Source: Lentisphaeria bacterium
GTDB lineage: Bacteria; Verrucomicrobiota; Lentisphaeria; Victivallales; Victivallaceae
Direction: 5' to 3'
DNA length: 64,000 bases
NCBI GenBank assembly: GCA_017507125.1
Contig: JAFWBQ010000063.1
Span: 1-64,000, forward strand
Every line of letters begins with the position of its first letter. Positions within the stretch are counted from its first letter, which is position 1. Made by a program: the position numbers and the translations under genes. Under the pieces are notes generated by a model, which was not told the DNA's origin, made no database searches, and saw only the letters and a program-made list of their open reading frames with translations. Shown here one piece after another: positions 8,101 through 41,843 of this stretch.

Positions 8101-9764
8101 ACTTTTTACGCCGTCACCCCCTTATCACCGTTTTCAGCACGGCACTGGTGCTGAGGGGGATGTTTGCCCTCTTTTACCTCTCTTCACCTTTTCGCTTTTT
8201 TCACTGCATTCCGGGGCTGGATATGGAAACGCTTCTGCGTTTCGGTGAATGGGGAACTCCCGGCAACAACTTCTTTTTCACACTCCACAGGCTTCAGGTC
8301 TTTCTTTTCTGGAAAGTGAACAACGGCGTCCATCCGGTTCTCTGGCACGTCCTTTGGCAAAGTCTGCTGGGAGCTGCCGGAGCGGCCATGATCGCCGGAA
8401 TTTCCCTGAGACTCTTCGGAAAAAGATATCCTGCCCTTTTGGCAGGACTCCTCTGGGCACTGAATCCCGTCGAGCTGATGTATGAATTCACCACCTTGCA
8501 GGATTCTTTAGTCAACTTCGGCATCATATTGAGTATTTTCGCTTTTCTTGAAGCAAGAAAGCGCCGCTTTGCCCCTTTCTTTGCTCTTGCATCAGGTGCC
8601 GCAGCCGGCATCGCCGCCACAGGCCGCCCCGTTGCCATTGGCCTGGTCCTCTGTCTCGGGGTGTGGAATTTATACTATCTCCACCGCCGTAAACTCCCTT
8701 TGAAAAGAGTGCTTTTTTTCGCCGGGGGAGTGTTGGCGCTCTGGGGCGTCTTTTCAACTGTCAATCTGATCGTCATAAAAAAATTCAACTGTTTTTTCAA
8801 TCCTGTTTCCTATGCCGTTGCGGTCAATACCACTCCGGCGGCAGTGCACGGCTCCTCAAAAAAAACTTTTGAGCTCCCCCCTCTCCTTAAAACAGTCTGC
8901 AAGATGGCGCTGAGGACGCCCCGGCTCCTGAGCCCCCAGGAGATCCCTGAAAATCTGAACATCCATTTTTTAAGAGCAAAGATCCCCTTTTTCAGGATCC
9001 CTTACGCCTTTATCCCTCTCTGCGCCGCCGCAGCAATACTTTTCCTGCTTCTGACGGGACGCTGGAAGAAAAAAGAAGGCTTTCTTCTGGTTCCCATTTT
9101 TGCCCTTGCCGTTTTTCTCTGCATCCGGGAGCCGATCGGACGTTACCGGCTTCTGCTGCTTCCCTGGTTCACCCTTCTGACAGTATGGCTTTTCAGTTAC
9201 TTCAGCGCAAAAAAAAGCAGATTGCCGCTTTGTCTGATCGTCTCGGGAGTTCTCATTTTCATCGGTTGCTCCCTGACAGCCCATCCCCTGCGGGGCGCGG
9301 ATCACTTTGCCTGGGGAGTGGCACTGGAAAAAGAGGCAGGAAAAACGACTCCCGAAGCGCTGAAAGAATTTAAAACTGCCTTTCTCCTCAAACCGGATCC
9401 CAACCATGCCGTTTCCCTCATAACCCGTGCCATGAAAGCCAATGACCGGGAACTTGCACAGGAAACAGCTCAAAAGTGGATGGCGGCAAGCCGCAACAGT
9501 ACACTTTCCTGTTACTACGCAGCACTTGCCGCGTTCCCTGAAATGGACAAGATGGAACACTTCTTTTCACTTGTCAAAGAGAAGGAACTTCCTCCGAAGC
9601 TGTGTTTCCGCTATTACTTTATGCGGGGAGATATCAGTTACCGCAAGGGCCGTTTCAGTGAAGCGGCAATTTTCTATAAATCAGCGTTACAGCTGCCGGA
9701 AGGGACTCCCGCGCAGCGTCAATATGCAGAAAAAATGATCCAACGACCGGAGATGAAAAAATGA
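8097..9764 (+). CDS. Multipass glycosyltransferase-like (GT39/ArnT-type) protein with C-terminal TPR-like tail
   Basis: 555 residues, beginning with TTG overlapping the upstream stop (TTGA). About residues 1-395 hold ten or so membrane helices with an early lumenal loop (PGLDMETLLRFGEWG) carrying an acidic residue, as in polyprenol-phosphate-sugar-dependent glycosyltransferases of the PMT/ArnT clan. The segment after about 400 is soluble and helical (ALEKEAGKTTPEALKEFK, then FRYYFMRGDISYRKGRFSEA), resembling TPR repeats. Such proteins usually transfer sugars to lipid or protein on the periplasmic side. Acceptor unknown; the family assignment is moderate. The stop overlaps the next ATG (ATGA). 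Confidence 0.7.
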   Translation: MNFLRRHPLITVFSTALVLRGMFALFYLSSPFRFFHCIPGLDMETLLRFGEWGTPGNNFFFTLHRLQVFLFWKVNNGVHPVLWHVLWQSLLGAAGAAMIAGISLRLFGKRYPALLAGLLWALNPVELMYEFTTLQDSLVNFGIILSIFAFLEARKRRFAPFFALASGAAAGIAATGRPVAIGLVLCLGVWNLYYLHRRKLPLKRVLFFAGGVLALWGVFSTVNLIVIKKFNCFFNPVSYAVAVNTTPAAVHGSSKKTFELPPLLKTVCKMALRTPRLLSPQEIPENLNIHFLRAKIPFFRIPYAFIPLCAAAAILFLLLTGRWKKKEGFLLVPIFALAVFLCIREPIGRYRLLLLPWFTLLTVWLFSYFSAKKSRLPLCLIVSGVLIFIGCSLTAHPLRGADHFAWGVALEKEAGKTTPEALKEFKTAFLLKPDPNHAVSLITRAMKANDRELAQETAQKWMAASRNSTLSCYYAALAAFPEMDKMEHFFSLVKEKELPPKLCFRYYFMRGDISYRKGRFSEAAIFYKSALQLPEGTPAQRQYAEKMIQRPEMKK

Positions 9765-11399: not shown

Positions 11400-12569
11400 T
11401 TACCGCGGCACAAGCACAAATGTTTTACCGTGAGAAACTTTCTTTCCTATCCTCAAAGGAACCCATGAAGGCTGTATTTCATGTTCTCCCCAAGAGTTGG
11501 AAACGGCGATCTCTTCTGTTTCAAGATTATAACCGATAACAAGGCAGATGTGGTCTCCACCCTTAGACGGAACCTTGAGGCGGCGGAGACGCTTTACCCA
11601 TTCTTTCTTTGAACGGACCATGGTTCTTACACGCCGGCTCTCCATTCTGATTTTTTCATATTCAGGGTTGACACGCATAACCCAGAAAATGGGTATTCCC
11701 TGATCAATGTACTTTTTGATCATGGAAAGACGCAAATCACCACAGGAAACAGTTCTGAGATTCACAGCACGGCAAACAGGTGAAAGAGAACTGAGCAAAC
11801 TGCTGACAGATGTACCGCCCCCCTTGCGGGTGTTGGCTTTATCAGCAATAAAGTGCATATTGATGGTGGTGATCCCATAATATCTCAGAACTCTTTCCAC
11901 AGTTGCCGGTGCACAATATCCTTTAGACCCCTGATTGACCATGGGGATATCGGCAATAAATCTGTCACCGAAACTGTTTTCTTTCACCTTTTGAGAAAAA
12001 TCTTTATCCTTGAGATTGATCTTTTCTTTTCCGGCAGCAGAGAGATTTTTATCTCTGAAAAGAATGTGGATGATGACATACTCTCTGCGGTTATGTTCAA
12101 GAAAGATCTCCGTTTCTCCACTCATCCAGATGAGAGCGCGGCTGTTGACTTTTTTGAGACCATACTTCTGTTTCCGGGATTCACCGAATTGCGCCGTCAA
12201 CTGAGCGGCAAGTTCTCTTGCACTGTGGTTGATGGTCCGGCCCATATTCTTTTCTTTTGCCGTATCGCCTTTGTTGGCATAAAAGATATCAATTTGAGAA
12301 AGCAGCCCTGAATCGTCATAAGAAACACGCATTTCCACGGCAGGGACACCGAAAATTTTCCGGTTATGCAGAAAGGCGGTACGCAACATGTTATTGCCGC
12401 TGAAACGGATCCCTTTTGACAACATGAAACTTTCAAGTTTCTGCTTTGACCAACGCTGTTCCGATTTAAGAAAAGGCAATATTGCAGAGTGCTCACCTGC
12501 CTCTCTTCCGGAGAGTGATGTGAGTGTTGCCAGAAGTCCGCAAAGTAAAGCAAGAGATATCCGTTTCAT
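11400..12569 (-). CDS. Secreted papain-like (C39-type) cysteine peptidase
   Basis: 389 residues from the ATG at 12569, chosen because it has AGGAAG upstream and begins a signal peptide (MKRISLALLCGLLATLTSLS). A longer in-frame start exists but would bury this signal. The C-terminal domain (about 205-389) has the papain tetrad: Gln213 and Cys219 in VNQGSKGYCAPA, His340 in GGDHICLVIGYN and Asn358 in SNSWGE, fitting the Peptidase_C39_2 group. Residues 30-200 form a domain I do not recognise, possibly a propeptide or binding module. It follows the beta-helix array on the same strand but a terminator-like hairpin separates them. Convergent with fpg. Confidence 0.8.
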   Translation of the reverse strand: MKRISLALLCGLLATLTSLSGREAGEHSAILPFLKSEQRWSKQKLESFMLSKGIRFSGNNMLRTAFLHNRKIFGVPAVEMRVSYDDSGLLSQIDIFYANKGDTAKEKNMGRTINHSARELAAQLTAQFGESRKQKYGLKKVNSRALIWMSGETEIFLEHNRREYVIIHILFRDKNLSAAGKEKINLKDKDFSQKVKENSFGDRFIADIPMVNQGSKGYCAPATVERVLRYYGITTINMHFIADKANTRKGGGTSVSSLLSSLSPVCRAVNLRTVSCGDLRLSMIKKYIDQGIPIFWVMRVNPEYEKIRMESRRVRTMVRSKKEWVKRLRRLKVPSKGGDHICLVIGYNLETEEIAVSNSWGEHEIQPSWVPLRIGKKVSHGKTFVLVPR

Positions 12570-12611
12570 ATATTCTTCCTGATGGTAAAAAATTACAGAA
12601 GCCTGTGTTCG

Positions 12612-12643
12612 AAAGAACTGCCGGGGCTCCATGCTCCCGGCAG
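12612..12643 (-). terminator. Probable terminator after the beta-helix operon
   Basis: CTGCCGGGG (12618-12626) pairs with CCCGGCAG (12636-12643); on the minus strand it is followed by TTCTTTC. It lies between the last beta-helix gene and the peptidase gene. The T-run is imperfect, so readthrough into the peptidase is possible. Confidence 0.55.
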
Positions 12644-12665
12644 CTGACTCTCTCAATGGCTGTTT

Positions 12666-14606
12666 TTATTTGCTGCGAAGCTGATTGAGAACAGCAATAA
12701 CTTTTTCACTCTTTTTATGCATCTCAATAAACTTTTTCTGAGATTCCCCTGCCTGGAATGCTCCGGCGGCAGGAGCTTTGCCCTTGAAATACCCGGCCTT
12801 GAAACCGGGGAAAGCTGCAAACTTTTTACCATTGACGGTAAAAGGTTTGGAAAGATCAATGGCGCATCCGGCAGCGGGAGATGCCGCTTTAAGAGTCACA
12901 TCCGGAAGTCCGGGAACGTTTTTGCTGTTCCACAGATTCTTTGTTTCATCAACGCCGATGACCTTGTTGCGCCTGGCGATTTCGGGGTCACGCTGCTTCA
13001 CAGAACGGGCTTTGGGATCAAAGGTGTAAAGCAGATTGCCGTCAAAAAGCTCCTGACTCTTTGTGGTAAGGTAGGGACCGCCTTTCATAACGTTGTTCAC
13101 GAAGAAGAAAGGCATAACCATACGAAAGCGATTGGCAAGATAATTCACTGAAAAGAGGGAGTCAATATCGTGCCCGCCCCAGAAAGTGTTGTGGTAAATA
13201 TAAATTTTCCCGGCATCAACCGGATCAGGCGGATTCTTCTTATAAACTTTTGTGCCCTTTTCAAAGTTCACCATGTCAGGTCCCCAGCGATAGGATTCGC
13301 AGTGAACATAGATCTGTCCTCCACCGTTGCGCGCCTGAACGAAAAGGTTGCGATAGTGATACTCTTCACGATGAGCGCGTTTGCCGCGCAAATCATGGAC
13401 ACGCAAAGGAATGCCGCAGTTCATCACCAGATTGCCGGTGAAGACACCTGCCGTACGGGGACCGGTACAGATGCCAACGCTTGACATTTCACGGACCACA
13501 TTGTCTCTGACTTCACAATTGGCGCCGTAGGCATCCATGCCGATCAATCCCTGAACGATGATGTTGTTGATGATACGGGTATTGCGCCCGTTATCAGCAA
13601 TGCCGATATCGTCAGAGCTTGAGGTGCCGATGATATATTTGAAAATAAGGTAAAGCAGTCCGCCCCGCATATCTTCAGCACTGCGGAGCTTGAAAAGATC
13701 ATTGCGGATGAATCCGGCTGTGAGAACGGAGTTTCTGACCGTGGTATCGGTCACTTTTTCATCAATACGCACCCGGGCGCCGCCGTGCATCAACAGACAG
13801 TTGTCAATGGTGTTGTAAGAGCTCTTCCCCACCAGACGGAACTGACGGCGGCTGCCCCGCATGTAAAGATCTTTGAAGTTGAGGTAAGAAACACTGCTCA
13901 GAATGAATCCCTCGCCCTTTGAGGCTGTAAATGTGTGATTCTGAGGCTTGTCGCCGTTGGCAAAGCGCAGATAGAGATACCCTTTGCTCCAGCCCGCCAT
14001 GACGTAGTTGATAACGGGCCAGAACTGCTCTTTGCGGCTGCGGAAATACTGGTGTGTCACCCAGAAATCTTTGGGCATGTTCAAGAGATCGAATCCGGGG
14101 AGACGTTTGCATTCAGGGCCGAATTTGCTCCAGAACATATCGGCATTCATTTCAACCGGGAGCTTTTTCCAACGGGGAAGCTCCATGGTGTAACGGTTGA
14201 TAAAGGTGATCATTTTCCCGTCCATCATCACAAGATCAGGACGGTTGGGGAGCTTGGCTTTCCAGATTTCAGGCCCGATCTCAGGAGCAGGGATCCACTT
14301 GGCAACAGGAATACCGGGAGCCTCCACAATGGAAAGATACTCCCCTTTTTTACCTCTTGTTCCGGCAAAGGTGATGGGGGCGCCTTTTTTCCCTGATTTT
14401 CTGAAAGTGATCTGTTCACGGTAAATTCCGGGGCCGATCTTCACCATATCGCCTGGTTTCGCCTTGGATGCGGCAAAAGCGATGGTCTTGAAAGGCGCTT
14501 TGGCACTCCCCGGATTTTTATTGTTTCCTGCAGGGGAAACATAAAACTCCGCTCCTCCCAGCACGAAAGCAAGAGAAAAGCCTAACAAACACACTGTTTT
14601 CTTCAT
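12666..14606 (-). CDS. Secreted right-handed beta-helix protein, copy 1 of 6
   Basis: 646 residues. A signal peptide (MKKTVCLLGFSLAFVLGGA) is followed by a DUF1565-type opening (FYVSPAGNNKNPGS, APFKTIAFAASKA, PGDMVKIGPGIYRE, SGKKGAPITFAG) typical of parallel beta-helix polysaccharide lyases and related proteins. The middle has the coils LLMHGGARVRID, AGFIRNDLF, DDIGI, IYHNTFWGG and FFVNNVMKGG; the end has GYFKGKAPAAGAFQ and a charged helix. It probably acts on, or binds, a polysaccharide outside the cytoplasm. A GGAGGA site precedes the ATG. Most similar to copy 2. Exact enzyme class cannot be assigned. Confidence 0.85.
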   Translation of the reverse strand: MKKTVCLLGFSLAFVLGGAEFYVSPAGNNKNPGSAKAPFKTIAFAASKAKPGDMVKIGPGIYREQITFRKSGKKGAPITFAGTRGKKGEYLSIVEAPGIPVAKWIPAPEIGPEIWKAKLPNRPDLVMMDGKMITFINRYTMELPRWKKLPVEMNADMFWSKFGPECKRLPGFDLLNMPKDFWVTHQYFRSRKEQFWPVINYVMAGWSKGYLYLRFANGDKPQNHTFTASKGEGFILSSVSYLNFKDLYMRGSRRQFRLVGKSSYNTIDNCLLMHGGARVRIDEKVTDTTVRNSVLTAGFIRNDLFKLRSAEDMRGGLLYLIFKYIIGTSSSDDIGIADNGRNTRIINNIIVQGLIGMDAYGANCEVRDNVVREMSSVGICTGPRTAGVFTGNLVMNCGIPLRVHDLRGKRAHREEYHYRNLFVQARNGGGQIYVHCESYRWGPDMVNFEKGTKVYKKNPPDPVDAGKIYIYHNTFWGGHDIDSLFSVNYLANRFRMVMPFFFVNNVMKGGPYLTTKSQELFDGNLLYTFDPKARSVKQRDPEIARRNKVIGVDETKNLWNSKNVPGLPDVTLKAASPAAGCAIDLSKPFTVNGKKFAAFPGFKAGYFKGKAPAAGAFQAGESQKKFIEMHKKSEKVIAVLNQLRSK

Positions 14607-14622
14607 CTTGATCCTCCTCTGT

Positions 14623-16560
14623 TTATTTATTATTTCTCAACATCTTTGCAATATCTTCAGCACGTTTGTGCATCCTGAAAAATTTTTCCTGAGATTCTCC
14701 CTGCTGGAAGGCTCCTGCGGCTGGTGCTTTTCCCTTGAAATAGCCGGGTGCAAATCCGGGGAACGCCGTAAATTTTTTGCCGTTGGCGGTGAAAGGCTTT
14801 GAAATATCAATGGCGCACTCAAGAGCCGGAGAACCGGCTTTCAGGGTCATATCCGGCAATCCCGGAACATTGCCGCCGTTCCAGAGTTTCTTTGTCTCCT
14901 CAACTCCGATGAGCTTGTTGCGCCGGGCGATCTCAGGATCACGCTGGGGCATGGCACGCATGGCAGGGTCAAAGGTGTAAAGCAGATTGCCGTTGAAAAG
15001 CTCCTGACTGCGGCTTTCCATGCGGGGACCGCCTTTGATCACGTTGTTGACAACAAAAAAGGGCAGCACCCGTTTCAGCTTGGATGCAATGACCCGCACA
15101 GTGAAGTTGGAGCCGAGATCAGGGCCGCCCCAGAAAGTGTTGTGATAGATGTAGATGTGTCCGGGGTCAACCAGAGTGAGAGGGGTCTGGGGAGCGTTTT
15201 TCGCTGCCTTAACGATTTTTGCTTCGTCAGGGTTAGGCTCATAAGAAGCGCAGTGAAGGAAAAACTGGGAACCGGCATGGCGCGCTTGAACATAGAGGTT
15301 GCGGTAGTGGAACTCTTCACGTTTGGTTCCCACTTTGCCCCGCAGATGGTGGATCCGCAGGACGATACCGCAGTTCATCACCAAATTGCCGGTAAAAGTC
15401 CCCGTACAGGCATCCCCGGTGGAAATTCCCACACTTGCCATTTCGCGCACAACGTTGTCCTGAACATGGATATCAGGACCGTAGGCACGGATCCCGACAA
15501 GACCTCTGAGGAACACATTTCCGGTGATCCGGGTAAACTTTCCATTATGGAGCACCCCCACATCGTCAGAAAGGGAAGTCCCGATGATATATTTGAAAAT
15601 GGTATAAACAAGACAGCTCCGCATATCGTGGCTGCCCCGGAGTCCGAAAAGGTCATCGCGGATAAATCCGGAAGTCATGATAGAATTCTTCACCTGAGTA
15701 TGGGTGACTCCCTCATCAATACGCACCCGGGCACCGCCGTGCATCAAAAGGCAGCTGTCAATGGTGTTGTGAGAACTCCTGCCCTGCAAACGGAACTGAC
15801 GGCGGCAACTCCTCAAATGAAGATCTTTGAAATAAAGATGGGATACATTGTTCAAAACGAACCCCTCACCTGTTGAAGCAACGATCTTGCGCCCCTGAGG
15901 CTTTTCCCCATTGGCAAAACGGAGATAGAGAAAACCATCTTTCCATCCGGAAAGCACATATCCTAAAGCGGGCCAGAAAAGTTCCTTGCGCTTGCCGAAA
16001 TAACGGTGACGCACCAGAATATCTTTCGGGAGCGTCAGCAAATCCAATCCGGGCAAACGCTTGCAGTTGGGACCGAACTTGCCCCAGAACATATTTTCGT
16101 TGAGTTCAGAGGGCAGATCCTTCCACCGGGGCAGTGCCATAGTGGAAGCGTTTATAAAAGCGATCATCTTACCATCCAGCGTAATAAGATCCGGACGTTT
16201 TACCAATTTGACCTTCCACACATCCGGAGCGATCTCAGGCGCGGGGACCCATTTGTCAAGGAGTATACCGGGCGCTTCAATAATGGTCAGATATTCCCCG
16301 TTTTTTCCCCGCGTTCCGGCAAAAGTAATGGGAGCACCCTTTTTTCCTGATTTTCTGAAAGTGATCTGTTCCCGGTAGACACCGGGGCCGATCTTCACTG
16401 TATCGCCGGGTTTGGCTTTGGAAGCGGCAAAACCGATGGTCCTGAAAGGAGCCTTGGCACTCCCGGAATTTTTATCGTTTCCGTCAGGGGAAACATAAAT
16501 TTCAGCAGCTCCGGCTGCAAAAGAAAGTAATAAAAGCGGCAGCCATATTCTCTTTTTCAT
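14623..16560 (-). CDS. Secreted right-handed beta-helix protein, copy 2 of 6
   Basis: 645 residues with signal peptide MKKRIWLPLLLLSFAAGAA. Same architecture as copy 1: IYVSPDGNDKNSGS, PGDTVKIGPGVYREQITF, LLMHGGARVRIDEG, AGFIR replaced by SGFIRDDLF, SDDVGVLHNG, IYHNTFWGGPDL, FFVVNNVIKGGP and the GYFKGKAPAAGAFQ tail. It lies 16 bases upstream of copy 1 and 36 bases downstream of the ceramidase-like gene. Residues conserved in all six copies (HGGARVRI or HGGYRVRI, the SDD pair, HNTFWGG) are candidates for the active or ligand site. Confidence 0.85.
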   Translation of the reverse strand: MKKRIWLPLLLLSFAAGAAEIYVSPDGNDKNSGSAKAPFRTIGFAASKAKPGDTVKIGPGVYREQITFRKSGKKGAPITFAGTRGKNGEYLTIIEAPGILLDKWVPAPEIAPDVWKVKLVKRPDLITLDGKMIAFINASTMALPRWKDLPSELNENMFWGKFGPNCKRLPGLDLLTLPKDILVRHRYFGKRKELFWPALGYVLSGWKDGFLYLRFANGEKPQGRKIVASTGEGFVLNNVSHLYFKDLHLRSCRRQFRLQGRSSHNTIDSCLLMHGGARVRIDEGVTHTQVKNSIMTSGFIRDDLFGLRGSHDMRSCLVYTIFKYIIGTSLSDDVGVLHNGKFTRITGNVFLRGLVGIRAYGPDIHVQDNVVREMASVGISTGDACTGTFTGNLVMNCGIVLRIHHLRGKVGTKREEFHYRNLYVQARHAGSQFFLHCASYEPNPDEAKIVKAAKNAPQTPLTLVDPGHIYIYHNTFWGGPDLGSNFTVRVIASKLKRVLPFFVVNNVIKGGPRMESRSQELFNGNLLYTFDPAMRAMPQRDPEIARRNKLIGVEETKKLWNGGNVPGLPDMTLKAGSPALECAIDISKPFTANGKKFTAFPGFAPGYFKGKAPAAGAFQQGESQEKFFRMHKRAEDIAKMLRNNK

Positions 16561-16596
16561 TGTTTACAATTCCCCTGTTGTCAATTTCTGTTTGAT

Positions 16597-17844
16597 TCAA
16601 CTTTCCAATTCTTCCGGCAGCGGTCCGTGAAGTTTTCTCATTCCCTCCACGGCGGCGTTGACCAGTTTCAAAGATTCAAAAGGCTGGATAAAGGCCGAGT
16701 TGACAGCAGTTTCATATCCCCCTGCCACATAGCCGTTGGCATGAGGCAGATAACTCAAGTATGCTGTGGAGTTGTAAAGAATGAATGTTCTTTTGTAAGG
16801 CGAATGCCACTTGATCTCCTGACCGATCTCAGCAAGCATTTCTCCCGGAACTCCCACAAGGCAGACATCATTGTTGAATGCAAGAAACTGGAGTTCAACT
16901 TCAGTTTCTCTCTTCCCGGCATACTCAGGCATCTCCTGCCGCATCTGCTGCCGGTCGCGGCGCAATTTCACAGTCAGACGCTCAATGGAGCCTTTGATTT
17001 TCGGATTTTCAATCAGATATTTTTCCTTGTTTCTGCGGGCGTCGCAAACTCCTTTAATGGCAGCAACAGCAAGGTCTGAGGCGCACTTTCTGACGCTTTC
17101 CCAGCCGCATTCGGAGTCTTTGGGAAACTGGTCTCCTGCGGCACCGTCTACAAAGACGCACCAGCAGCTGTTATCTTCCATGATCTCCCGCAAGGCACCG
17201 GGGTAGTCCGCTGAAATCTGATGAGACCCCATTCCCGGAGCATGTGACGCAAGGGGATGAGCGGCAAAGTTGATAAGCACTCCCTGGGGATGTTTTGTTT
17301 CAGGAGAGTTGAAAATCAGCATTCCCAGCTCCTGATCCGTAAAACCGTTGCTCAACGGCTCAAGAGTACGCTGGTGGGGCAGAAAAGTGCAGCTGTTTGA
17401 ACCATCCACATAGCGGCGGTTATAGTTGGCATCGCACTGACAGGAGTAAAAATAAAGTTCTGTTTCCTGCCACTTTTCCATGGCGGCACTGACAGCCGAG
17501 GAGCTCCACCTGTAAAGTTTTGCAATGTACTCAAGATTGGCGCTTCTGCGTCCCAGGGACCGGGTATGGGGACCGCTGTGGGTATGGGTGCAGCTCAATA
17601 TCACATTTTCTTCAGGACATGCAAGAACCGCTGCCGTATCCCGCCTGATCTTGCGGATGAATGTTTCATCCAGTCCCAGAAGATCGTAGCCGAGAACGGC
17701 CCCTTTTGTTTCACCGTCGTCCAGCAGCAGAACAGAAAGTTTCAGGTCATCGTGGATCCTGACCGTTACATCATTCACCCCATACCCTGCGACGGGTTCT
17801 CCCACCTCAGGAGTGATTATTTGTTCGTAATGTGCAATTTTCAT
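16597..17844 (-). CDS. Neutral-ceramidase-like metal hydrolase within the beta-helix array
   Basis: A 415-residue protein without signal peptide, so probably cytoplasmic. The zinc-site signature CTHTHSGPHT (about 85-94) and INFAAHPLASH, with DGAAGDQFP and the C-terminal HANGYVAGGYE, match the N-terminal catalytic domain of neutral/alkaline ceramidases, amidases that hydrolyse N-acyl bonds. Bacterial relatives of this short, single-domain kind are often of unknown substrate; N-deacylation of an amino sugar is one possibility. It interrupts the six beta-helix genes after the fourth in transcription order, with 32-36-base gaps on both sides, and is very likely co-transcribed. A relative lies at 41844. 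Confidence 0.8.
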   Translation of the reverse strand: MKIAHYEQIITPEVGEPVAGYGVNDVTVRIHDDLKLSVLLLDDGETKGAVLGYDLLGLDETFIRKIRRDTAAVLACPEENVILSCTHTHSGPHTRSLGRRSANLEYIAKLYRWSSSAVSAAMEKWQETELYFYSCQCDANYNRRYVDGSNSCTFLPHQRTLEPLSNGFTDQELGMLIFNSPETKHPQGVLINFAAHPLASHAPGMGSHQISADYPGALREIMEDNSCWCVFVDGAAGDQFPKDSECGWESVRKCASDLAVAAIKGVCDARRNKEKYLIENPKIKGSIERLTVKLRRDRQQMRQEMPEYAGKRETEVELQFLAFNNDVCLVGVPGEMLAEIGQEIKWHSPYKRTFILYNSTAYLSYLPHANGYVAGGYETAVNSAFIQPFESLKLVNAAVEGMRKLHGPLPEELES

Positions 17845-17876
17845 AAAGTTTTTTTCTTATGCTCCACTCAGGGGAG

Positions 17877-19844
17877 TTACTTTCCCGGATTTCTTCTGAG
17901 CATGGCAGACACTTCTTCAGTTTTCTTGTGCATTCTGAAGAATTTTTCCTGGGATTCCCCAACCTGGAAAGCTCCGGCAGCAGGCGCTTTGCCCTTGAAA
18001 TAGCCGGGGACAAATCCGGGCAGAGCCGGCATGACGCGTCCGGCTTTTCCCGGTCTGGATTTGGTGACGTCAATACCGCACTCAAGAGCAGGAGAACCCG
18101 CCGTCAATGTCACATCAGGAAGTCCGGGAACAGATTTTTTATTCCAGATCTTCTCATGTTTGACAATGCCGATGCTGCGGTTGATCTTGTAAAGTCCGGG
18201 ATCGCGGATCGATTTGTCTTTCATGGCGGATTCAGCAAAGAGGTAGAAAAGATTGCCTTTCATAAGGTCAAGAGTCTTGCTGTTGTGACGGGGAGAGAAC
18301 TTGACGATGTTGTTGACAAAATAGAAGGGCATGACAGTGCGGAACATTCTGGCAAATTTGTCAACCATAATACCGTAACCGCCGTCGGCACCTCCCCAGA
18401 AGGTGTTGTGGTAAATATAAAATCTTCCGGGGTCAACAGGGGAAGGCGGATTTTTCTTGTAGACTTTTTTACCCTTTTTATCCTTCTCAAAGTTGACCAC
18501 ATCATCGCCGATGGTCATGGAGGAGCAGTGGACAAAGACATTACTGCCGCCGTGAGGCGCCTGCACAAAAAGGTTACGGTAATGGAACTCTGTGCGAAGC
18601 GGATTCCTGTGCTTTTCACGGATCCGGTGGATCCGCAGCGGAATGCCGCAGTTCATTACAAGGTTTTCATAAAATCTGCCGCCGCCCAGAGGTCCGGTAA
18701 CAATGCCCACGCTTGACATTTCACGGACCACATTGGAGTGCAGTTCAACACCGGGACCGAATGCCTGGACTCCGATCAGTCCCCTGATGATGATATTGCC
18801 GGTGATCAGAGTTCCTGTTCCCCGGTTGATGACACCCACGTCGTCAGAAAGGGAGGTTCCGATAATGTACTTGAAGATGAGATAGAGCAAGCCGCCGCGC
18901 ATGTCTTTACTGCTGCGGAGACCGAAAAGATCATCGCGGATGAATCCTGCGGTCATGATGTTGTCTTTGATCACCGCATTTTTCACTTCGCCGTCAAGGC
19001 GGACCCGGGCGCCGCCGTGCATAAGCAGACAATTTTTGACTGTAACAAAAGAACTTTTACCCTTAACATGGATCTGATAACGGCTGCCCCGCATGTGAAG
19101 GTCGCTGAAAGTCACATGTGAGAGACCGTCAACGGTGAAACCTTCACCGTAAGCTGCAGTAATAAGATGTTTTTCAGGTGTACTGCCGTTGGCAAAGCGC
19201 AAATAGAGCATTCCATTCTGCCATCCGGAAAGCACATAATTGAGCACCGGCCAGAAGTATTCCTGACGCTTGCCGAAATAGTGGTGTTTCACCTTGATAT
19301 TTTTGTCAAGTGCCAGAAGATCAAGTCCGGGAATGCGTTTGCATTTGGGGCCGAAACCGCTCCAGATATCATTTTCAATAATGAGAGAGGGCAGTGTTTT
19401 GCGGCGCTTGAGTTCCATGGTGCGTGAATTGATGAGAGCGATCATCTTTCCATCGACCATAACAATGCTTGGACGCTGAGCAACTTTTGTTTTCCAGACG
19501 TTGGGTGCGATCTCAGGAGCAGGAACCCATTTGTCAAGAGTGGTTCCGTTGGATTCAACAATGGTCAGAAACTCACCTTTCCTGCCCCTTGTTCCGGCAA
19601 AAGTGATGGGGGCGCCTTTTTTACCGGATCTGGTAAACTGGATCTGTTCCCGGTAAAGTCCGGGAAGAATTTTCACAGTATCCCCGGGACCGGCTTTTTT
19701 GGACGCAAAAGCGATGGTTTTCCAGGGGGATTTTTCACTTCCGGAGTTGGCATCACTTCCGGAATTGGAAACATAAAAGGTTTTGGCATCAGCGGAGCAG
19801 AAACAAAGTACAAACACCGCTGCCGGCAGAATTTTTTTAATCAT
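17877..19844 (-). CDS. Secreted right-handed beta-helix protein, copy 3 of 6
   Basis: 655 residues. Signal peptide MIKKILPAAVFVLCFCSADA, then FYVSNSGSDANSGSEKSPW, PGDTVKILPGLYREQIQF, GSRYQIHVKG, LLMHGGARVRLDGE, AGFIRDDLFGLRSS, SDDVGVINRG, IYHNTFWGGADGG, YFVNNIVKF and GYFKGKAPAAGAFQVGE with a C-terminal charged helix. It is intermediate between copies 1-2 and copies 5-6. GGAG lies upstream of the start. It is 32 bases before the ceramidase-like gene and 21 bases after copy 4. Confidence 0.85.
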   Translation of the reverse strand: MIKKILPAAVFVLCFCSADAKTFYVSNSGSDANSGSEKSPWKTIAFASKKAGPGDTVKILPGLYREQIQFTRSGKKGAPITFAGTRGRKGEFLTIVESNGTTLDKWVPAPEIAPNVWKTKVAQRPSIVMVDGKMIALINSRTMELKRRKTLPSLIIENDIWSGFGPKCKRIPGLDLLALDKNIKVKHHYFGKRQEYFWPVLNYVLSGWQNGMLYLRFANGSTPEKHLITAAYGEGFTVDGLSHVTFSDLHMRGSRYQIHVKGKSSFVTVKNCLLMHGGARVRLDGEVKNAVIKDNIMTAGFIRDDLFGLRSSKDMRGGLLYLIFKYIIGTSLSDDVGVINRGTGTLITGNIIIRGLIGVQAFGPGVELHSNVVREMSSVGIVTGPLGGGRFYENLVMNCGIPLRIHRIREKHRNPLRTEFHYRNLFVQAPHGGSNVFVHCSSMTIGDDVVNFEKDKKGKKVYKKNPPSPVDPGRFYIYHNTFWGGADGGYGIMVDKFARMFRTVMPFYFVNNIVKFSPRHNSKTLDLMKGNLFYLFAESAMKDKSIRDPGLYKINRSIGIVKHEKIWNKKSVPGLPDVTLTAGSPALECGIDVTKSRPGKAGRVMPALPGFVPGYFKGKAPAAGAFQVGESQEKFFRMHKKTEEVSAMLRRNPGK

Positions 19845-19865
19845 AGATAAGATTTCTCCGTAAAA

Positions 19866-21806
19866 TTATTTGTAACTCATTTTTTTCATCATATCAACAG
19901 CACGCTGTCCTTTATCATAGAGCTTTCTGAAAAGGGCATCGGATTCATTTTTCTGCAGAGCGCCGGCAAAGGGAGCTTTGCCCTTGAAGTAACCGGACTT
20001 GAAGCCGGGGAGCGCGTCATATTTCTTACCTTTGTAGGTGTAGGGCTTTGAGATGTCCACGCCGCACTCAGCAGGGGAGAAATCAGCCGCAAGCGCCATC
20101 TGAGGCATACCTGAAGTTTTTCCGGGAGCCCACATTTTTTTGCTTGTTTCAAGGGACAATGCACGGTTGTTTTTGGGGACATCGGTATCCTGCATTTTTT
20201 CCTGAATAGGGGGAGTTGTCAGGTAAAGCAGATTTCCTGCCATCACCTCATGGCTTTTGGCATTGTAGCGGGGAGTATTTTTTACAACGTTATTGATGAA
20301 GTAGAAGGGCTGCACACTGCGGAATCTGCTGGCAAGCCGTTTCACATCAAAAAACGCCGCCTTTCCGCCGCCGCCCCAGAAGGTGTTGTGGTAGATATAG
20401 ATCTTACCGGGATCAACAGGGTTGGGGGGATTCTTTTTATAAACTCTTCCGTCAAAGTTCATGCCGTCCGCCTTGGTTTTGTAGGACTCGCAGTGAACGA
20501 AAATAAATCTGCCGCCTTTGGCACCCTGAATGAACACATTGCGGTAATGGTACTCTTCACGTTTGGTGCGTTCATGGCGATAGTTGTGTATACGCAAAGG
20601 GATCCCGCACTCCATGATAAGGTTTTCGTAAAATCTGCCTGTGGTGGCAGCACTGGTGCAAAGTCCCACGCTGGCAAGTCCTCTGATGGTGTTGCGGCGG
20701 ACAATGTTCCGGGGGCCCATAGCATCAATGCCGATCAACCCTTCAAAAATCACATTGTCCTCTACGAGTATATCTGAACCGTAAGAGTAGACTCCCACAT
20801 CATCAGAACGGGAGTTGCCAATGAGATATTTGAAGATGGTGTAGATCAAACCGCCCCGCTGATCACTGGAATCCCGGTGTTTGAAGTGATCCCCCAGAAT
20901 AAATCCGCAGGTCATGAGATTATTTCTGATGGTGATGAAAGAGGCTGTTTTTTCAATTCTGACGCGGTATCCGCCGTGCATCAGAAGACAATTTTCAATA
21001 TTAACGTGAGAAGTTTTTCCACTCAACAGGAACTGAGTGCGGCTGCCCCGCAGAAAGAGATTACTGAAATTGATATGCGAAGCACTTTCCAAAGTGAATC
21101 CGTTACCGTAGCTTGCTGTGAAAGTATGATTTTCAGGTTTGTCCCCATTGACAAAACGCAAATAAAGATATCCATCTTTCCAGCCGCAAAGCACATAAGC
21201 GATAACGGGCCAGAAATCCTGTTTCACATTACCGAAGTAGATGTGTGAAACCGTGGCGTTTTTGGGCAGGATAAAGAAGTCCATGCCGGGCAGACGCCTG
21301 CACTTCTCCCCCAAAGCCAACTTGCTCATAAAGTTGGTCTGGGTCAGGTGGGTCGGAACCTTTTCCCACCGTTTGAGCCCCATGGAACCGTTGTTGATCT
21401 TGGCAATACTTTTTCCATCCATCATCACCAGAAGAGGATTTTTTGCCAATTTGATCTTCCACACATCGGGACCGATCTCAGGAGCACGCTGCCACTTCTT
21501 GAGGGGAACGCCGGGGGATTCAATAACGGTCAGCCATTTTCCATCCTTGCCGCGGGTTCCGGTAAAGGTGATGGGGGCGCCCTTTTTACCTGATCTCTTC
21601 AGCGTGATCTCTTCACGGAATATACCGGGACCGATTTTGACCGTATCACCCGCTTTTGCTTTTGACGCGGCATAAGCAACCGTCGCAAAGGGAGCATCGG
21701 CACTTCCGGAGTTTTTGTTGCTTCCATTTACAGACACAAACAAATCTTTACCGCAAAGTAAAGAGAGCGGGAGCATCGCTCCCAACAGCAAGAATTTTTT
21801 TTTCAT
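19866..21806 (-). CDS. Secreted right-handed beta-helix protein, copy 4 of 6
   Basis: 646 residues. Signal peptide MKKKFLLLGAMLPLSLLCG; opening LFVSVNGSNKNSGSADAPF and AGDTVKIGPGIFREE. It is the most divergent copy: HGGYRVRIEK replaces HGGARVRID, GNSRSDDVGVYSYG replaces GTSLSDDVG, and the tail is GKAPFAGALQKNESD. IYHNTFWGGGGK and YFINNVVKN are retained. The ribosome site AGGAAAAAGG precedes the ATG. Retention of the same coils in a diverged copy argues for a conserved ligand site and altered specificity. Confidence 0.85.
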   Translation of the reverse strand: MKKKFLLLGAMLPLSLLCGKDLFVSVNGSNKNSGSADAPFATVAYAASKAKAGDTVKIGPGIFREEITLKRSGKKGAPITFTGTRGKDGKWLTVIESPGVPLKKWQRAPEIGPDVWKIKLAKNPLLVMMDGKSIAKINNGSMGLKRWEKVPTHLTQTNFMSKLALGEKCRRLPGMDFFILPKNATVSHIYFGNVKQDFWPVIAYVLCGWKDGYLYLRFVNGDKPENHTFTASYGNGFTLESASHINFSNLFLRGSRTQFLLSGKTSHVNIENCLLMHGGYRVRIEKTASFITIRNNLMTCGFILGDHFKHRDSSDQRGGLIYTIFKYLIGNSRSDDVGVYSYGSDILVEDNVIFEGLIGIDAMGPRNIVRRNTIRGLASVGLCTSAATTGRFYENLIMECGIPLRIHNYRHERTKREEYHYRNVFIQGAKGGRFIFVHCESYKTKADGMNFDGRVYKKNPPNPVDPGKIYIYHNTFWGGGGKAAFFDVKRLASRFRSVQPFYFINNVVKNTPRYNAKSHEVMAGNLLYLTTPPIQEKMQDTDVPKNNRALSLETSKKMWAPGKTSGMPQMALAADFSPAECGVDISKPYTYKGKKYDALPGFKSGYFKGKAPFAGALQKNESDALFRKLYDKGQRAVDMMKKMSYK

Positions 21807-21832
21807 AAATCCTTTTTCCTTAAATAAAAAGA

Positions 21833-23785
21833 CTATTTGGCATTTTTTATGATTTGCACCGCTTTTTCAGCTTTGCGGTACATGTCAATAAACATCTGCA
21901 TGGACTCTCCTGCCTGAAAAGCGCCTGCGGCAGGTTTTGCGCCCTTGAAATATCCCGGTTTGAATCCGGGGAAAGCCGGATATGTTTTGCCGTTGAAAGT
22001 AAAGGGGCGTGAAATGTCGATTCCGATACCGAGAGCGGGAGAATTTTTGGCAAGAGTCACATCATAGAGGCCCGGAATTTTTTTATTGTTCCAGAGTGTA
22101 TTGACCATTTTTTCCGGAATCAGAACATTGTGTTTTTTCACTCCGGGGTAGCGCAAAGGCTCCTTGTTGGCGGAACCGGGATAACCATAGAGGAGATTTC
22201 CTGCGAGGAGTTCCTGAGAATGATCCTCAAAGCGATGGCACCCCTTGATCACGTTGTTGATAAAGAGGAAAGGCTGGACACTTCTGAAACGGTTGTAATA
22301 ATATCCCACATGGAATCCGGGATTGAAATCATTTCCCCCCCAGAAAGTGTTGTGATAGATGTAAAATCTGCCGGGATCAACAGGGTTGGGGGGATTCTTT
22401 TTATAAACAGGATATTTATGTTTGGGTGACGGAGGCTCAAAGTTGATTTTATCAGGTCCTCTTACATGAGATGAACAGTGGACAAACACCTGGGAACCGT
22501 CATGGGGAGCCTGGATCACAAAGTTGCCGTAATGATATTCAACACGCTCGGCACGGGCGGCGCGCAGATCGTGGATGCGGATGGGAATACCGTTGTTGAT
22601 CAGGAGATTGTGATGGAATTGACCAATTGTCCGGGGACCGGAATAGACACCGACACTTGACATCTGCATCACAACGTTGTTGTAAAATTCAGAATGGGGA
22701 GCATCCGTATGCACACCGATAAGTCCCTGAAGGATCACGTTTCCGTAGATCTTCGCTCCGGGGCCGAAGATCTGGATCCCCATATCATCAGAAAGAGAGG
22801 TGCCGATGATGTACTTGAAAAATTCATAGAGCACGCCGCCGCGCATATCATAACTGGCCCGGAGCTGAAAGAGGTCGCCCCGGAGGAATCCTGCGGTGAG
22901 GATCGAGTTTCTGACAACAGTGTTCGCAGCGTTTCTCTCGATCCGCACCCGGGCGCCGCCGTGCATCAGAAGACAGTTGTCGATCACATTGTTTGAACTG
23001 CCGCCCAATATGCGGATCTGATAACGGCTGCCTCTCAGGTGAAGATTTTTAAACTGCAGCCATGAGGCTCTTTTCAAAGTGAATCCGTTGCCGTAAGAGG
23101 CGGTAAATTTGTGTTTTTCAGGCGTACTTCCGTCTGTAAAGCGGACATAGAGTTTTCCATCGCTCCAACCGGTCAGAACATTGCCGATGGTGGGCCAGAA
23201 AAGCTCCTTGCGTTTTCCGAAATAACGGTGACTGATAAGGATATCCTTTTTCAGCGCAAGCAGATCCAATCCGGGACAGCGTTTGCAGCCGGGACCGAAC
23301 TTGCTCCAGATCAGCTCTTCAGTGAGCTCCTCCGGGAGCGTTTTCCCCCGGGGAAGTGCCATGGTCAACTTATTGATAAAACCTATCATCTTGCCGTCCA
23401 TCATCATCAAATCAGGACGTTTTTTCAGTTCTGTCTTCCAGACATCAGGAGCTATCTCAGGAGCAGGTTTCCAGTTGGTAAGAGTCGTTCCAATACCCTC
23501 TACGATGGTAAGAAATTCGCCGTTTTTGCCTCTGATGCCCTCAAAAGTGATGGGGGCATCTTTTTTGCCGGAACGGGCAAACGTAACCTGTTCCCGGTAA
23601 ACTCCGGGAGTGATTTTCACAGTGTCTCCCGCCTGAGCTTTGCCGGCGGCGTATGTGATGGTGGCAAAAGGAGCTTGAGACGTTCCGGGGTTTTTATCGC
23701 TTCCGGAAGGTGATACGAACCACTCCCTTCCCCAGAGCAGGGAAACGGGAAGAACAACTCCCAGCAAAAACAAGCGTCTTTTCAT
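21833..23785 (-). CDS. Secreted right-handed beta-helix protein, copy 5 of 6
   Basis: 650 residues. Signal peptide MKRRLFLLGVVLPVSLLWG, then WFVSPSGSDKNPGTSQAPF, GDTVKITPGVYREQVTF, GSRYQIRILGGSSNNVID, LLMHGGARVRIERN, AGFLRGDLFQLR, SDDMGIQIFG, IYHNTFWGGNDFNPGFHVGYYYNRF split over this stretch, FINNVIKGC and GYFKGAKPAAGAFQAGESMQMF. It pairs closely with copy 6 (shared GSSNNVIDNCLLMHGG, FDVGY/FHVGY, ESMQMFIDMYRKAEKA), indicating a recent duplication of this pair. AGGAG lies 9 bases before the ATG. Confidence 0.85.
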   Translation of the reverse strand: MKRRLFLLGVVLPVSLLWGREWFVSPSGSDKNPGTSQAPFATITYAAGKAQAGDTVKITPGVYREQVTFARSGKKDAPITFEGIRGKNGEFLTIVEGIGTTLTNWKPAPEIAPDVWKTELKKRPDLMMMDGKMIGFINKLTMALPRGKTLPEELTEELIWSKFGPGCKRCPGLDLLALKKDILISHRYFGKRKELFWPTIGNVLTGWSDGKLYVRFTDGSTPEKHKFTASYGNGFTLKRASWLQFKNLHLRGSRYQIRILGGSSNNVIDNCLLMHGGARVRIERNAANTVVRNSILTAGFLRGDLFQLRASYDMRGGVLYEFFKYIIGTSLSDDMGIQIFGPGAKIYGNVILQGLIGVHTDAPHSEFYNNVVMQMSSVGVYSGPRTIGQFHHNLLINNGIPIRIHDLRAARAERVEYHYGNFVIQAPHDGSQVFVHCSSHVRGPDKINFEPPSPKHKYPVYKKNPPNPVDPGRFYIYHNTFWGGNDFNPGFHVGYYYNRFRSVQPFLFINNVIKGCHRFEDHSQELLAGNLLYGYPGSANKEPLRYPGVKKHNVLIPEKMVNTLWNNKKIPGLYDVTLAKNSPALGIGIDISRPFTFNGKTYPAFPGFKPGYFKGAKPAAGAFQAGESMQMFIDMYRKAEKAVQIIKNAK

Positions 23786-23807
23786 GACTCAGGCTCCTCT
23801 TGTGTTT

Positions 23808-25748
23808 TTATTTGGCGTTTTTGATGATCTGCATGGCTTTTTCTGCCTTGCGGTACATGTCAATGAACATCTGCATGGATTCCCCATCCTGAAAAGCGCC
23901 TGCGGCAGGGGCTTTGCCCTTGAAATAACCGGGTTTGAATCCGGGGAAGGCAGGGAACTCTTTGCCTTTGTAGGTAAAAGGTTTGGAAATATCAATTCCC
24001 ACGCCGAGAGCAGGAGAGTTTTTGGCAAGAGTAAGATCGTAAAGTCCGGGGATCTTTTTATTGTTCCAGATGTTCCCGCTCTGAGCTTCGGCAAGCAGAA
24101 GATTATCCTTTTTCATGCCGGGGTGACGGATGGGATTTTTATTGACGGCACTGGGATAACCATACATAAGATTGCCCGCCTGAAGGATCTGGGCATCAGG
24201 ATTCCAGCGGTGGCATCCTTTGACAAGGTTGTTGACATAATAGAAAGGCATGACTGAACGGAACCGTCTGGCAAGATATCCCACATCAAATCCGGGAGTC
24301 CAGTCGCTGCCGCCCCAGAAGGTGTTGTGGTAAATGAAGATCTTGCCGGGATCAACGGGGGCGGGAGGATCGGTTTTGTACTTGGCAGTTCCCTTTTCAA
24401 AGTTGACCATATCAGGTCCGTAAAGGTGGGAAGAGCAGTGGACATAGACCTGAGAACCGTCATTGGGAGCCTGGATGAACACATTTCTGAAGTGATACTC
24501 CTCACGCTTGGCACGCTCGTGACGGAGCGCATGGACCCGCAGGGGGATAGCGGAGTTCATAACAAGGTTATGATAGAATTTTCCGCTGGTCTGAGGTCCG
24601 GTACAGATTCCGACACTTGACATATTCATGACAACATTTCCGGCAAATTCGCACTGAGGACCATAGGCGTCTGAACCGATCAGCCCCTGGGTGATCACGT
24701 TGTTCAGCACCCGGGTACCCGTTCCGTATTCTCTGACGCCGATATCATCGGAACTGGAGTAGCCGAGAATGAATTTGAATACCTGATAGAGCACGCCGCC
24801 GCGCATATCATTTGCAGCACGGAGCTGAAAAAGATCTCCGCGGATAAATCCCGCAGTCAGGATGGAATTCTGAACAGTGTTGTTCCGGGCGCCCTGATCG
24901 ATCCGCACCCGGGCCCCGCCGTGCATGAGAAGACAGTTGTCGATCACGTTGTTGGAGCTGCCGGCCGATATGCGGATCTGATAACGGCTGCCCCGCATGT
25001 GGAGATTTTTGAATTTGAGCCATGATGCCCGTTTCAAAGAGAATCCTTCACCGAAAGAAGCGGTGATGTTGTGCTTCTGAGGAGTGCTGCCGTCGGCAAA
25101 GCGGATATAGAGTTTTCCATTGCTCCACCCTGTCATCACATTGCCGATGGTGGGCCAGAGCAGCTCCTTGCGCTTGCCGAAATAGCGGTGACGGAAAAGA
25201 ATATCCTTTTTCAGAGAGAGCAGATCGAAACCGGGACAACGTTTGCAGTTGGGTCCGAATTTATCCCACATAAGCGTTTCATAAAGTTCATCGGGGAGCT
25301 GCTTCATGCGGGGCAGCGCCATGGTGGATTTGTTGATATAGGTGATCATTTTACCATCCATCATCATCAGATCAGGACGGTTCGGCAAATCGGTTTTCCA
25401 GACATCCGGAGCGATTTCAGGAGCCTTCTCCCACTTGGTCAAATTGGTTCCCACACCCTCAACGATGGTCAGAAAAGCACCATCTTTGCCACGGCTCCCC
25501 TCAAAAGTGATGGGAGCGCCCTTTTTCCCGGAACGGGTGAAAACGATCTGTTCACGGTAAAGTCCGGGAAGAATTTTCACCGTATCGCCGGGTTTGGCTT
25601 TCTGAGCGGCAAAAGCAATCGTTTTCCAGGGGGCCTGCTCCGTTCCCGGATTTTTATCATTTCCCTGCGGTGAAACGAAAAAATCTTTTGCAGCCAGAGG
25701 AAAGAGCGCACATAAAGCAGCCCACATAAAAGGCATTTTCTTCATCAT
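23808..25748 (-). CDS. Secreted right-handed beta-helix protein, copy 6 of 6 (first gene of operon)
   Basis: 646 residues from the ATG at 25748, chosen because GGAG lies six bases upstream; a longer frame to 25778 lacks this and does not begin with a signal. Signal peptide MMKKMPFMWAALCALFPLAA. Then FFVSPQGNDKNPGTEQAPW, GDTVKILPGLYREQIVF, ISAGSSNNVIDN, LLMHGGARVRIDQG, AGFIRGDLFQLR, SSDDIGVREYG, IYHNTFWGGSDWTPGF, YYVNNLVKGC, GYFKGKAPAAGAFQDGE. It is nearest the promoter at 25805 and therefore probably the most strongly transcribed member. Confidence 0.85.
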   Translation of the reverse strand: MMKKMPFMWAALCALFPLAAKDFFVSPQGNDKNPGTEQAPWKTIAFAAQKAKPGDTVKILPGLYREQIVFTRSGKKGAPITFEGSRGKDGAFLTIVEGVGTNLTKWEKAPEIAPDVWKTDLPNRPDLMMMDGKMITYINKSTMALPRMKQLPDELYETLMWDKFGPNCKRCPGFDLLSLKKDILFRHRYFGKRKELLWPTIGNVMTGWSNGKLYIRFADGSTPQKHNITASFGEGFSLKRASWLKFKNLHMRGSRYQIRISAGSSNNVIDNCLLMHGGARVRIDQGARNNTVQNSILTAGFIRGDLFQLRAANDMRGGVLYQVFKFILGYSSSDDIGVREYGTGTRVLNNVITQGLIGSDAYGPQCEFAGNVVMNMSSVGICTGPQTSGKFYHNLVMNSAIPLRVHALRHERAKREEYHFRNVFIQAPNDGSQVYVHCSSHLYGPDMVNFEKGTAKYKTDPPAPVDPGKIFIYHNTFWGGSDWTPGFDVGYLARRFRSVMPFYYVNNLVKGCHRWNPDAQILQAGNLMYGYPSAVNKNPIRHPGMKKDNLLLAEAQSGNIWNNKKIPGLYDLTLAKNSPALGVGIDISKPFTYKGKEFPAFPGFKPGYFKGKAPAAGAFQDGESMQMFIDMYRKAEKAMQIIKNAK

Positions 25749-25804
25749 ACTTTTCTCCAAATTTAAACTCCATCTCAAAGGACAAATTTTCTAATGTTTG
25801 AAGT

Positions 25805-25833
25805 AATATAGCATATCTATTCGCTCAATGCAA
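25805..25833 (-). promoter_or_regulatory. Promoter of the beta-helix/ceramidase operon
   Basis: On the minus strand: TTGCAT (25833-25828), 17 bases, TATATT (25810-25805), with TGC directly before the -10. The leader to the ATG at 25748 is about 50 bases. Confidence 0.65.
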
Positions 25834-25861
25834 ACTCAGCCCTTAAAAAAAATTCTCTCGA

Positions 25862-25969: not shown

Positions 25970-26716
25970 ATGAAAACAGCGATCGTCACCGGCGGCAGCC
26001 GGGGTATCGGCTACGGTATCGCCGAAGAACTGGCAGCAAATAACTGGAATCTTGCCATCTGTGCCCGTCAGGAGTCCTCCGACGCCGCAGAAAATCTGAT
26101 AAAAAAATTCCCCGGAGTCACTGTCCGCTATTACAAGTGCGATGTTTCAAGCGCCGCTGACCGCGAAAATCTTCTCGCCTCAGTGATCCGTGATTTCGGT
26201 TCCTTTGAAGCACTTGTCAACAACGCAGGCGTCGCCCCCCTTGTCCGTGCGGATCTTCTTGAAATGACAGAAGAAAGTTTTGACAGGGTCATGAACATCA
26301 ATCTGAAAGGACCTTTTTTCCTTTCCCAGAGCGCAGCCAAAATTTTTGCTGAACGCAAAACCGGCGTCATTGTCAACATCGGCAGCTGCTCCGCCACAGT
26401 TGCCAGCATCAGCCGGGGTGAATACTGCATTTCAAAAGCCGGCATCGGCATGATGACTAAACTTTTCGCAGTCAAGATGGCTGAATTCGGCGTCAATGTG
26501 TATGAGATCCGCCCCGGTGTGATTTCAAGCGATATGACAAGCACCGTTAAAGCCAAGTACGACAAGCTCATCGCCGAAGGACTGACGCTCCAGCCCCGCT
26601 GGGGAGAGCCTTCTGACATCGGCAAAGCCGTCGCCATGCTGCTGCGGGGAGACCTTGCCTACTCCACCGGTACAGTAATCGACATCGGCGGCGGAATGGA
26701 GATCGCAAGACTGTGA
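25970..26716 (+). CDS. Short-chain dehydrogenase/reductase (SDR)
   Basis: 248 residues, classical SDR. TGGSRGIGYGIAEEL is the nucleotide-binding loop, NNAGVAP the structural motif, and the active site is a Ser in IGSCSA with YCISKAG (Tyr and Lys). It ends in GGGMEIARL. Members of this 3-oxoacyl-ACP reductase-like branch often oxidise sugars or sugar acids using NAD(P). The TGA overlaps the GTG start of the flavoprotein gene (GTGA), so the two are likely translated together and may act on successive steps. It diverges from the beta-helix operon, hinting at a role in using the released sugar, which is inference. Confidence 0.9.
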   Translation: MKTAIVTGGSRGIGYGIAEELAANNWNLAICARQESSDAAENLIKKFPGVTVRYYKCDVSSAADRENLLASVIRDFGSFEALVNNAGVAPLVRADLLEMTEESFDRVMNINLKGPFFLSQSAAKIFAERKTGVIVNIGSCSATVASISRGEYCISKAGIGMMTKLFAVKMAEFGVNVYEIRPGVISSDMTSTVKAKYDKLIAEGLTLQPRWGEPSDIGKAVAMLLRGDLAYSTGTVIDIGGGMEIARL

Positions 26717-41760: not shown

Positions 41761-41781
41761 AAAGAGTATCATTGAAATTAC

Positions 41782-41824
41782 AGGCTGTTGTAAAACTTCC
41801 TCCTGAGGTGAACAACAGCCTTTT
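41782..41824 (+). terminator. Terminator-like hairpin before the second ceramidase-like gene
   Basis: AGGCTGTTGT (41782-41791) pairs with ACAACAGCCT (41812-41821), followed by TTTG; the loop contains a further small palindrome CCTCCTGAGG. The T-run is short, so it could be a partial terminator or leader element controlling the gene at 41844. Confidence 0.55.
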
Positions 41825-41843
41825 GATTCCCAAAGGAGTTTTT

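Follow-up and report, generated by a model that had tools for sequence, protein, structure and literature searches.

A tandem array of secreted beta-helix proteins, putative carbohydrate-cleaving enzymes, in a Lentisphaeria bacterium

Gene content and organization of the array

The stretch of DNA analysed here (the window, 64,000 nucleotides of GenBank contig JAFWBQ010000063.1 from a Lentisphaeria bacterium) is contig 13 of a 3.30 Mb genome that is 87% complete. Six adjoining genes on its minus strand encode products of 645-655 amino acids, each with a signal peptide (called by eye in c1-c6), and a hydrolase gene is embedded among them. The array is flanked on one side by a divergently transcribed SDR-FAD-amidase group, and on the other by a hairpin, a C39-like peptidase gene, and a MutM-like (Fpg) gene. 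The features are as follows:

11400-12569, minus strand: secreted C39-like cysteine peptidase (ATG at 12569; Pfam Peptidase_C39_2, 35.4 bits)
12611-12643, minus strand: terminator-like hairpin after copy 1, with a short T-rich tail (RNA fold z = -3.24)
12666-14606, minus strand: copy 1 (c1), beta-helix paralogue, last of the array; the protein modelled with AlphaFold2
14623-16560, minus strand: copy 2 (c2), beta-helix paralogue with an R358/S380 signature; yak orthologue 95%
16597-17844, minus strand: metal-dependent hydrolase of the neutral-ceramidase fold, embedded between c2 and c3, without a signal peptide
17877-19844, minus strand: copy 3 (c3), beta-helix paralogue with Q358/V380/R405; orthologues in yak (96%) and roe deer (78%)
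19866-21806, minus strand: copy 4 (c4), most divergent paralogue, with D358/C380; orthologues in yak (97%) and roe deer (72%)
21833-23785, minus strand: copy 5 (c5), beta-helix paralogue with an H358/Y380 pocket signature; yak orthologue 94%
23808-25748, minus strand: copy 6 (c6), secreted beta-helix protein, first gene of the array; orthologues in yak (96%) and roe deer (87%)
25805-25834, minus strand: promoter-like site upstream of copy 6 (9/12 matches, weak)

The open reading frames confirm the array as originally predicted, including the product lengths, the signal peptides, and intergenic gaps of 16-36 bases (22, 26, 21, 32, 36, and 16). Copy 6 starts with an ATG at 25748, with a possible alternative TTG upstream at 25778. 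The array proteins are 53-66% identical to copy 1, and both identity and the phylogenetic tree back the expected close pairs (c1-c2 and c5-c6), with c4 as the most divergent member. The motifs described as shared by all copies hold in part: HNTFWGG and the SDD motif are present in all six, but HGGARVRI is exact in four (c1, c2, c5, and c6; HGGARVRL in c3 and HGGYRVRI in c4), as is GKAPAAGAFQ (c1, c2, c3, and c6). In the surroundings of the array, no gene was recognised as a transporter or sulfatase. Elsewhere in the window, an 834-residue protein without a Pfam match (48129-50630) adjoins a GHL6/fucosidase-like gene (50637-52559).

Expression of the six copies as one operon, in a single transcript, is plausible given the short gaps and the gene order conserved in a relative from yak; this reading is based on gene spacing and on the lack of any strong signal inside the array. 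The predicted hairpin at 12612-12643 is real (z as listed above, with only one of 200 shuffles equally stable) and is retained in the yak relative, though its T tail is weak and a terminator scan did not list it. It separates copy 1 from the ATG of the C39-like gene, which probably lies outside the operon; this gene is kept in the yak and roe deer relatives and absent at this place in the goat relative. A promoter-like site does occur at 25834-25805, as predicted, but such sites appear at near-chance density (18 found versus 12.6 expected).

Fold and relationship to known families

The AlphaFold2 model of copy 1 (pLDDT 90.7, pTM 0.91, from a 25-sequence alignment) bears out the predicted right-handed beta-helix, with regular coils, an inserted region at about residues 119-225, and one helix at the chain end. 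Its stacked three-strand coils place the protein within the right-handed beta-helix (pectin-lyase-like) superfamily. Pfam Beta_helix scores above the cutoff in c1, c3, c4, c5, and c6, and falls 0.3 bits short in c2. The top Foldseek matches of the model are GH120 XylC, GH141 BT_1002, PL9 Pel9A, and GH136 lacto-N-biosidases, at a probability of 1.00; the TM-scores to these solved enzymes (about 0.34-0.41) indicate a family related in architecture and distinct in detail. Sequence matches to PL9, GH120, and GH141 are confined to the N-terminal ~45-100 residues and do not sustain the assignment to polysaccharide lyases suggested in the original prediction.

GH120 XylC (PDB ID: 3vst) also combines a right-handed beta-helix with an inserted domain, and ranks first both by fold (E 1.7e-12) and by sequence profile (over the N-terminal 100 residues, E 2.2e-10). 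Catalysis in GH120 is carried out by Asp/Glu residues (PMC6887791), and the array copies would likewise use Asp/Glu. However, the TM-score is 0.35, the sequence match ends at residue 120 of 650, and similarity does not extend over the full length or the catalytic region. GH141 BT_1002 (PDB ID: 5mqp) is a beta-helix of similar length (fold E 5.2e-11), but the TM-score is 0.34-0.38 and the sequence match comprises only ~36 N-terminal residues (16-51, E 0.072). Similarity to GH136 is likewise partial (residues 17-87, E 0.01). PL9 Pel9A (PDB ID: 1ru4) shares the secreted N-terminal opening (GDtv..pG.Y pattern) and the beta-helix fold, whereas the array proteins are larger, contain the inserted region, and have no invariant Lys/Arg at the spacing of the PL9 base. 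Copy 5 exceeds the Pfam Pel9A-like cutoff (27.9 versus 25.2 bits) with a match that covers 50 of 370 profile positions, all in its N-terminal 50 residues. Finally, among inverting hydrolases of the GH110/GH28 type, the D321...D344-D345 set of PdGH110B (PMC7939477) is resembled by the D312...D332-D333 set read from the sequence of all six copies. In contrast to a strict triad, D332 occurs in 35/39 homologues (D312 in 37/39, D333 in 39/39), D312 and D332 are separated by a helix, and the fold E-value is weaker (1.7e-5).

Searches of Pfam, NCBIfam, and PDB sequences for a named PL or GH family gave N-terminal matches only. Since no curated family spans the full length, the array proteins constitute, as judged against these three resources, a distinct family. 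A viral origin was considered and discarded: the proteins matched in BFVD are tailspikes and beta-helix proteins of a generic kind. In the literature on Lentisphaeria beta-helix or tandem glycan enzymes, nothing was found on the array family.

Conservation of the putative active site

The family alignment comprises 39 homologues, down to ~32% identity. Ten residues are invariant (R278, Y319, K323, S331, D333, N369, S376, R402, H404, and R413); E415 is present in 38 sequences (Asn in the most distant one). D312, D333, and E415 occur in every copy of the window. Of the 'DD pair', only D333 holds across the family, as D332 is missing from four homologues.

Strands were assigned from the AlphaFold2 model, and the facing and clustering of residues follow strand order, not coordinates. 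The outward PB1 residues, listed by coil, are R278/R280, D333/G335, G356/358, G378/380, R402/H404, and 433/H435. In the model, the charged ends with a glycine floor between them would form the pattern expected of a sugar-binding groove. Mean entropy is 0.80 bits at the outward PB1 positions versus 1.43 bits at other polar positions of the helix (permutation p 0.015, an indicative value because the PB1 positions were hand-picked by eye). Strand order and entropy uphold the conserved polar face on which the original prediction staked its reading.

The dense invariant basic patch (R278, K323, R402, H404, and R413) could also be that of a polysaccharide lyase, in which R402/H404 or K323 would abstract the proton beside a uronic acid while the other basic residues neutralise the carboxylate. 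PL9 and PL6 enzymes are among the fold matches, and the short N-terminal match of copy 5 points in the same direction. The one-coil Lys/Arg pair of PL6 enzymes is absent, however, and no invariant Lys or Arg stands ~40 residues after the Asp pair, where PL9 enzymes have theirs. Moreover, the best fold matches (GH120 and GH141) are hydrolases, and the carboxylates of D333 and E415 suit a hydrolase, which makes a lyase an unlikely identity for the copies. The pair of conserved carboxylates and the closest folds argue for hydrolysis; the abundance of basic residues argues for an acidic substrate and leaves room for a lyase mechanism.

Divergence of the copies

Around the shared centre and on the same face of the helix, several positions differ from copy to copy. 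In c1-c6, position 358 is occupied by D, R, Q, D, H, and D, position 380 by C, S, V, C, Y, and C, and position 405 by D, H, R, N, D, and A. All three are unchanged in the yak and roe deer orthologues wherever these exist; position 338 also differs between copies and changes slightly in two orthologue groups. As these four positions vary between copies and are mostly fixed between species, the pattern supports one chemistry with diversified substrate pockets, in agreement with the diversification originally proposed.

All copies are under purifying selection (orthologue dN/dS 0.08-0.15), and synonymous sites of the paralogue pairs are near saturation; together, these values indicate that the copies are old and that each is maintained. 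Gene conversion was examined as a cause of the higher divergence of c1 and rejected: the orthologue stays closest in all but one of the segments compared, and no donor was found among the known copies.

Distribution and history of the array

All genomes compared are drafts, and the majority are MAGs. Lentisphaeria alone yielded full-length homologues; where a record names the source, the homologue comes from a ruminant-gut MAG, of yak caecum, goat rumen, roe deer caecum, or sheep colon (two further records give no source). Within the family to which the organism belongs, full-length members occur in 11 of 78 genomes, its own included. This genome encodes eight, i.e., the six array copies and two singletons on other contigs, one of which (contig C75) lies near GH123-like and GHL10 genes.

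The relatives differ in copy number. In the roe deer relative, the interval from the MutM-like gene to the SDR gene contains three copies and a truncated one, without the hydrolase. The yak relative carries seven copies and the hydrolase over two unjoined contigs; the SDR gene adjoins copy 6 on one of them, and the other runs from copy 5 through the C39-like gene. At least 10 copies, over unjoined contigs, are present in the goat relative, where the hydrolase and the C39-like gene are absent from this place. One goat copy (L033, 961-2925) has an in-frame TAG at the otherwise invariant W206 and is either a decaying copy or a sequencing error. In a fifth genome of the genus (G011), the flanking genes are in order, ~1 kb apart, with no trace of the array. 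The site (L152, about 8700-9650) contains a single ~300-residue ORF unrelated to the array genes.

In a tree built by a quick method, c3, c4, and c6 arose before the window, yak, and roe deer lineages separated, and most goat copies group together. As read from these loci, the history of the array is one of tandem birth and death at a single site, with lineage-specific expansion. A broader interpretation, offered tentatively, is that this site in gut Lentisphaeria repeatedly amplifies, recombines, and prunes a hitherto uncharacterised, glycan-cleaving beta-helix family, yielding species-specific sets tuned to host diet or mucus; such sets would share a catalytic centre and differ in their substrate pockets.

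The neighbouring SDR protein (25970-26713) is 98.8% identical to its yak and roe deer orthologues, whereas the adjacent genes reach only 55-90% in the roe deer relative, a pattern that reflects either unusual constraint or recent exchange. Other beta-helix genes abound in the same genome (49 Pfam Beta_helix stretches in total). Contig C79 (L153, 2340-19307) carries a second tandem array of seven ~820-residue genes with beta-helix stretches, 52-69% identical to each other and apparently in two parts. Contigs C106, C38, C51, C18, C100, C92, C78, and C30 encode many proteins of 1,010-1,097 residues in which the N-terminal opening of the array family matches at two separate places, i.e., doubled beta-helix proteins.

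The embedded hydrolase

The 415-residue hydrolase scores below the cutoff of Pfam Ceramidase_alk (18.6 versus 32.1 bits). It nevertheless has the ceramidase fold and the HxH metal motif: its profile matches neutral ceramidase (PDB ID: 2zws) with E 6.7e-10 and an aligned HTHSGP, and Foldseek gives E 2.1e-11, from a low-confidence model (pLDDT 58.7) built from few sequences and used for the fold match only. The downstream Glu and Tyr regions align as well; in contrast, the GNLSP serine stretch of 2zws corresponds to GDQFP, and the signal peptide is missing.

Of 149 relatives' genomes, 42 contain the hydrolase gene, mostly away from the array, and two of the four arrays (those of the roe deer and goat relatives) lack it. 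Copies 78-80% identical to it are present in a different family of the same order, where no beta-helix genes adjoin them. A fixed partnership with the array was therefore rejected, and the earlier placement of the enzyme among genes for one glycan is not supported. The hydrolase gene is best regarded as an optional, amidase-like passenger that spreads independently and entered the array in the window-yak lineage. A second ceramidase-like gene of the window (41772-43196) also scores below the Pfam cutoff (26.3 bits).

Proposed function

Their secretion, their fold, the invariant charged residues at the centre, and purifying selection together indicate that the proteins are enzymes acting on a polymer outside the cytoplasm. 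That polymer might bear peptides (peptidoglycan, a glycopeptide, or poly-gamma-glutamate) rather than be a plant or host polysaccharide. In four genomes, distant singletons lie in same-strand groups with GntR and M19 dipeptidase genes (or M19 and FAD oxidoreductase genes); in two, distant homologues lie beside two M14 carboxypeptidases and PGA_cap, and one goat homologue precedes an M28 peptidase. However, families of the M19, M14, and PGA_cap type may act on other amides and are common in PVC genomes, and the array has no such genes save the ceramidase-fold hydrolase and the neighbouring C39-like gene; a peptide-bearing substrate is accordingly quite improbable. The distant single-copy loci (L127, L126, L129, L131, L128, and L130) also include DUF1559 pseudopilins and metallophosphoesterases in their gene groups. 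Least probable is a non-catalytic role, in which glycan-binding or surface proteins would have been multiplied for adhesion or antigenic variety. Precedents are beta-helix adhesins (PfbA, PDB ID: 4mr0, is among the weak fold matches) and the amplified beta-helix Pmp proteins of Chlamydia, and tandem amplification, variable copy number, and unequal orthologue divergence would suit such a role, but no cell-wall anchor, autotransporter, or sorting domain is seen in a chain that ends in one helix, and a charged set invariant over 39 sequences under strong purifying selection fits catalysis better.

We favour, with a probability of roughly 0.58, a lineage-specific tandem expansion of secreted beta-helix carbohydrate-cleaving enzymes, more likely glycoside hydrolases than lyases. 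Some findings count against this reading: the TM-scores of ~0.34-0.41, the end of sequence matches within the N-terminal ~100 residues, the lack of recognised transporter or sulfatase genes next to the array, the loss of D332 from the GH28/GH110-like triad in four homologues, and the single Asn at E415. The genomic context is mixed, with glycosidase-like genes near the C75 singleton and M19, M14, M28, and PGA_cap genes near distant homologues.

As carbohydrate-cleaving enzymes, the proteins would be translated from a single transcript and exported, and their PB1 groove would bind a glycan that is acidic or heavily substituted. D333, with E415 and/or D312, would provide acid/base catalysis, while R278, K323, R402, H404, and R413 would hold the negatively charged sugar. 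Because each copy retains the shared centre and has its own residues at 338, 358, 380, and 405, the set may cleave one type of bond in several of the chemical environments that a heterogeneous polymer offers. A single target glycan, as first proposed, is among the points that are not supported or are unproven. The ceramidase-fold hydrolase, a later and optional addition, would stay in the cell.

Conclusions

If active, the array copies would be the first members of a new family of carbohydrate enzymes, from a gut lineage that has received little study, and would provide a ready set for specificity assays. Tandem arrays of this kind allow a direct view of how a bacterium adapts a single enzyme to a complex polymer. 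In this one, the residues of the shared centre and of the variable pocket can be specified, orthologues of most copies occur in sister species, and copy number at the locus ranges from 0 to at least 10.
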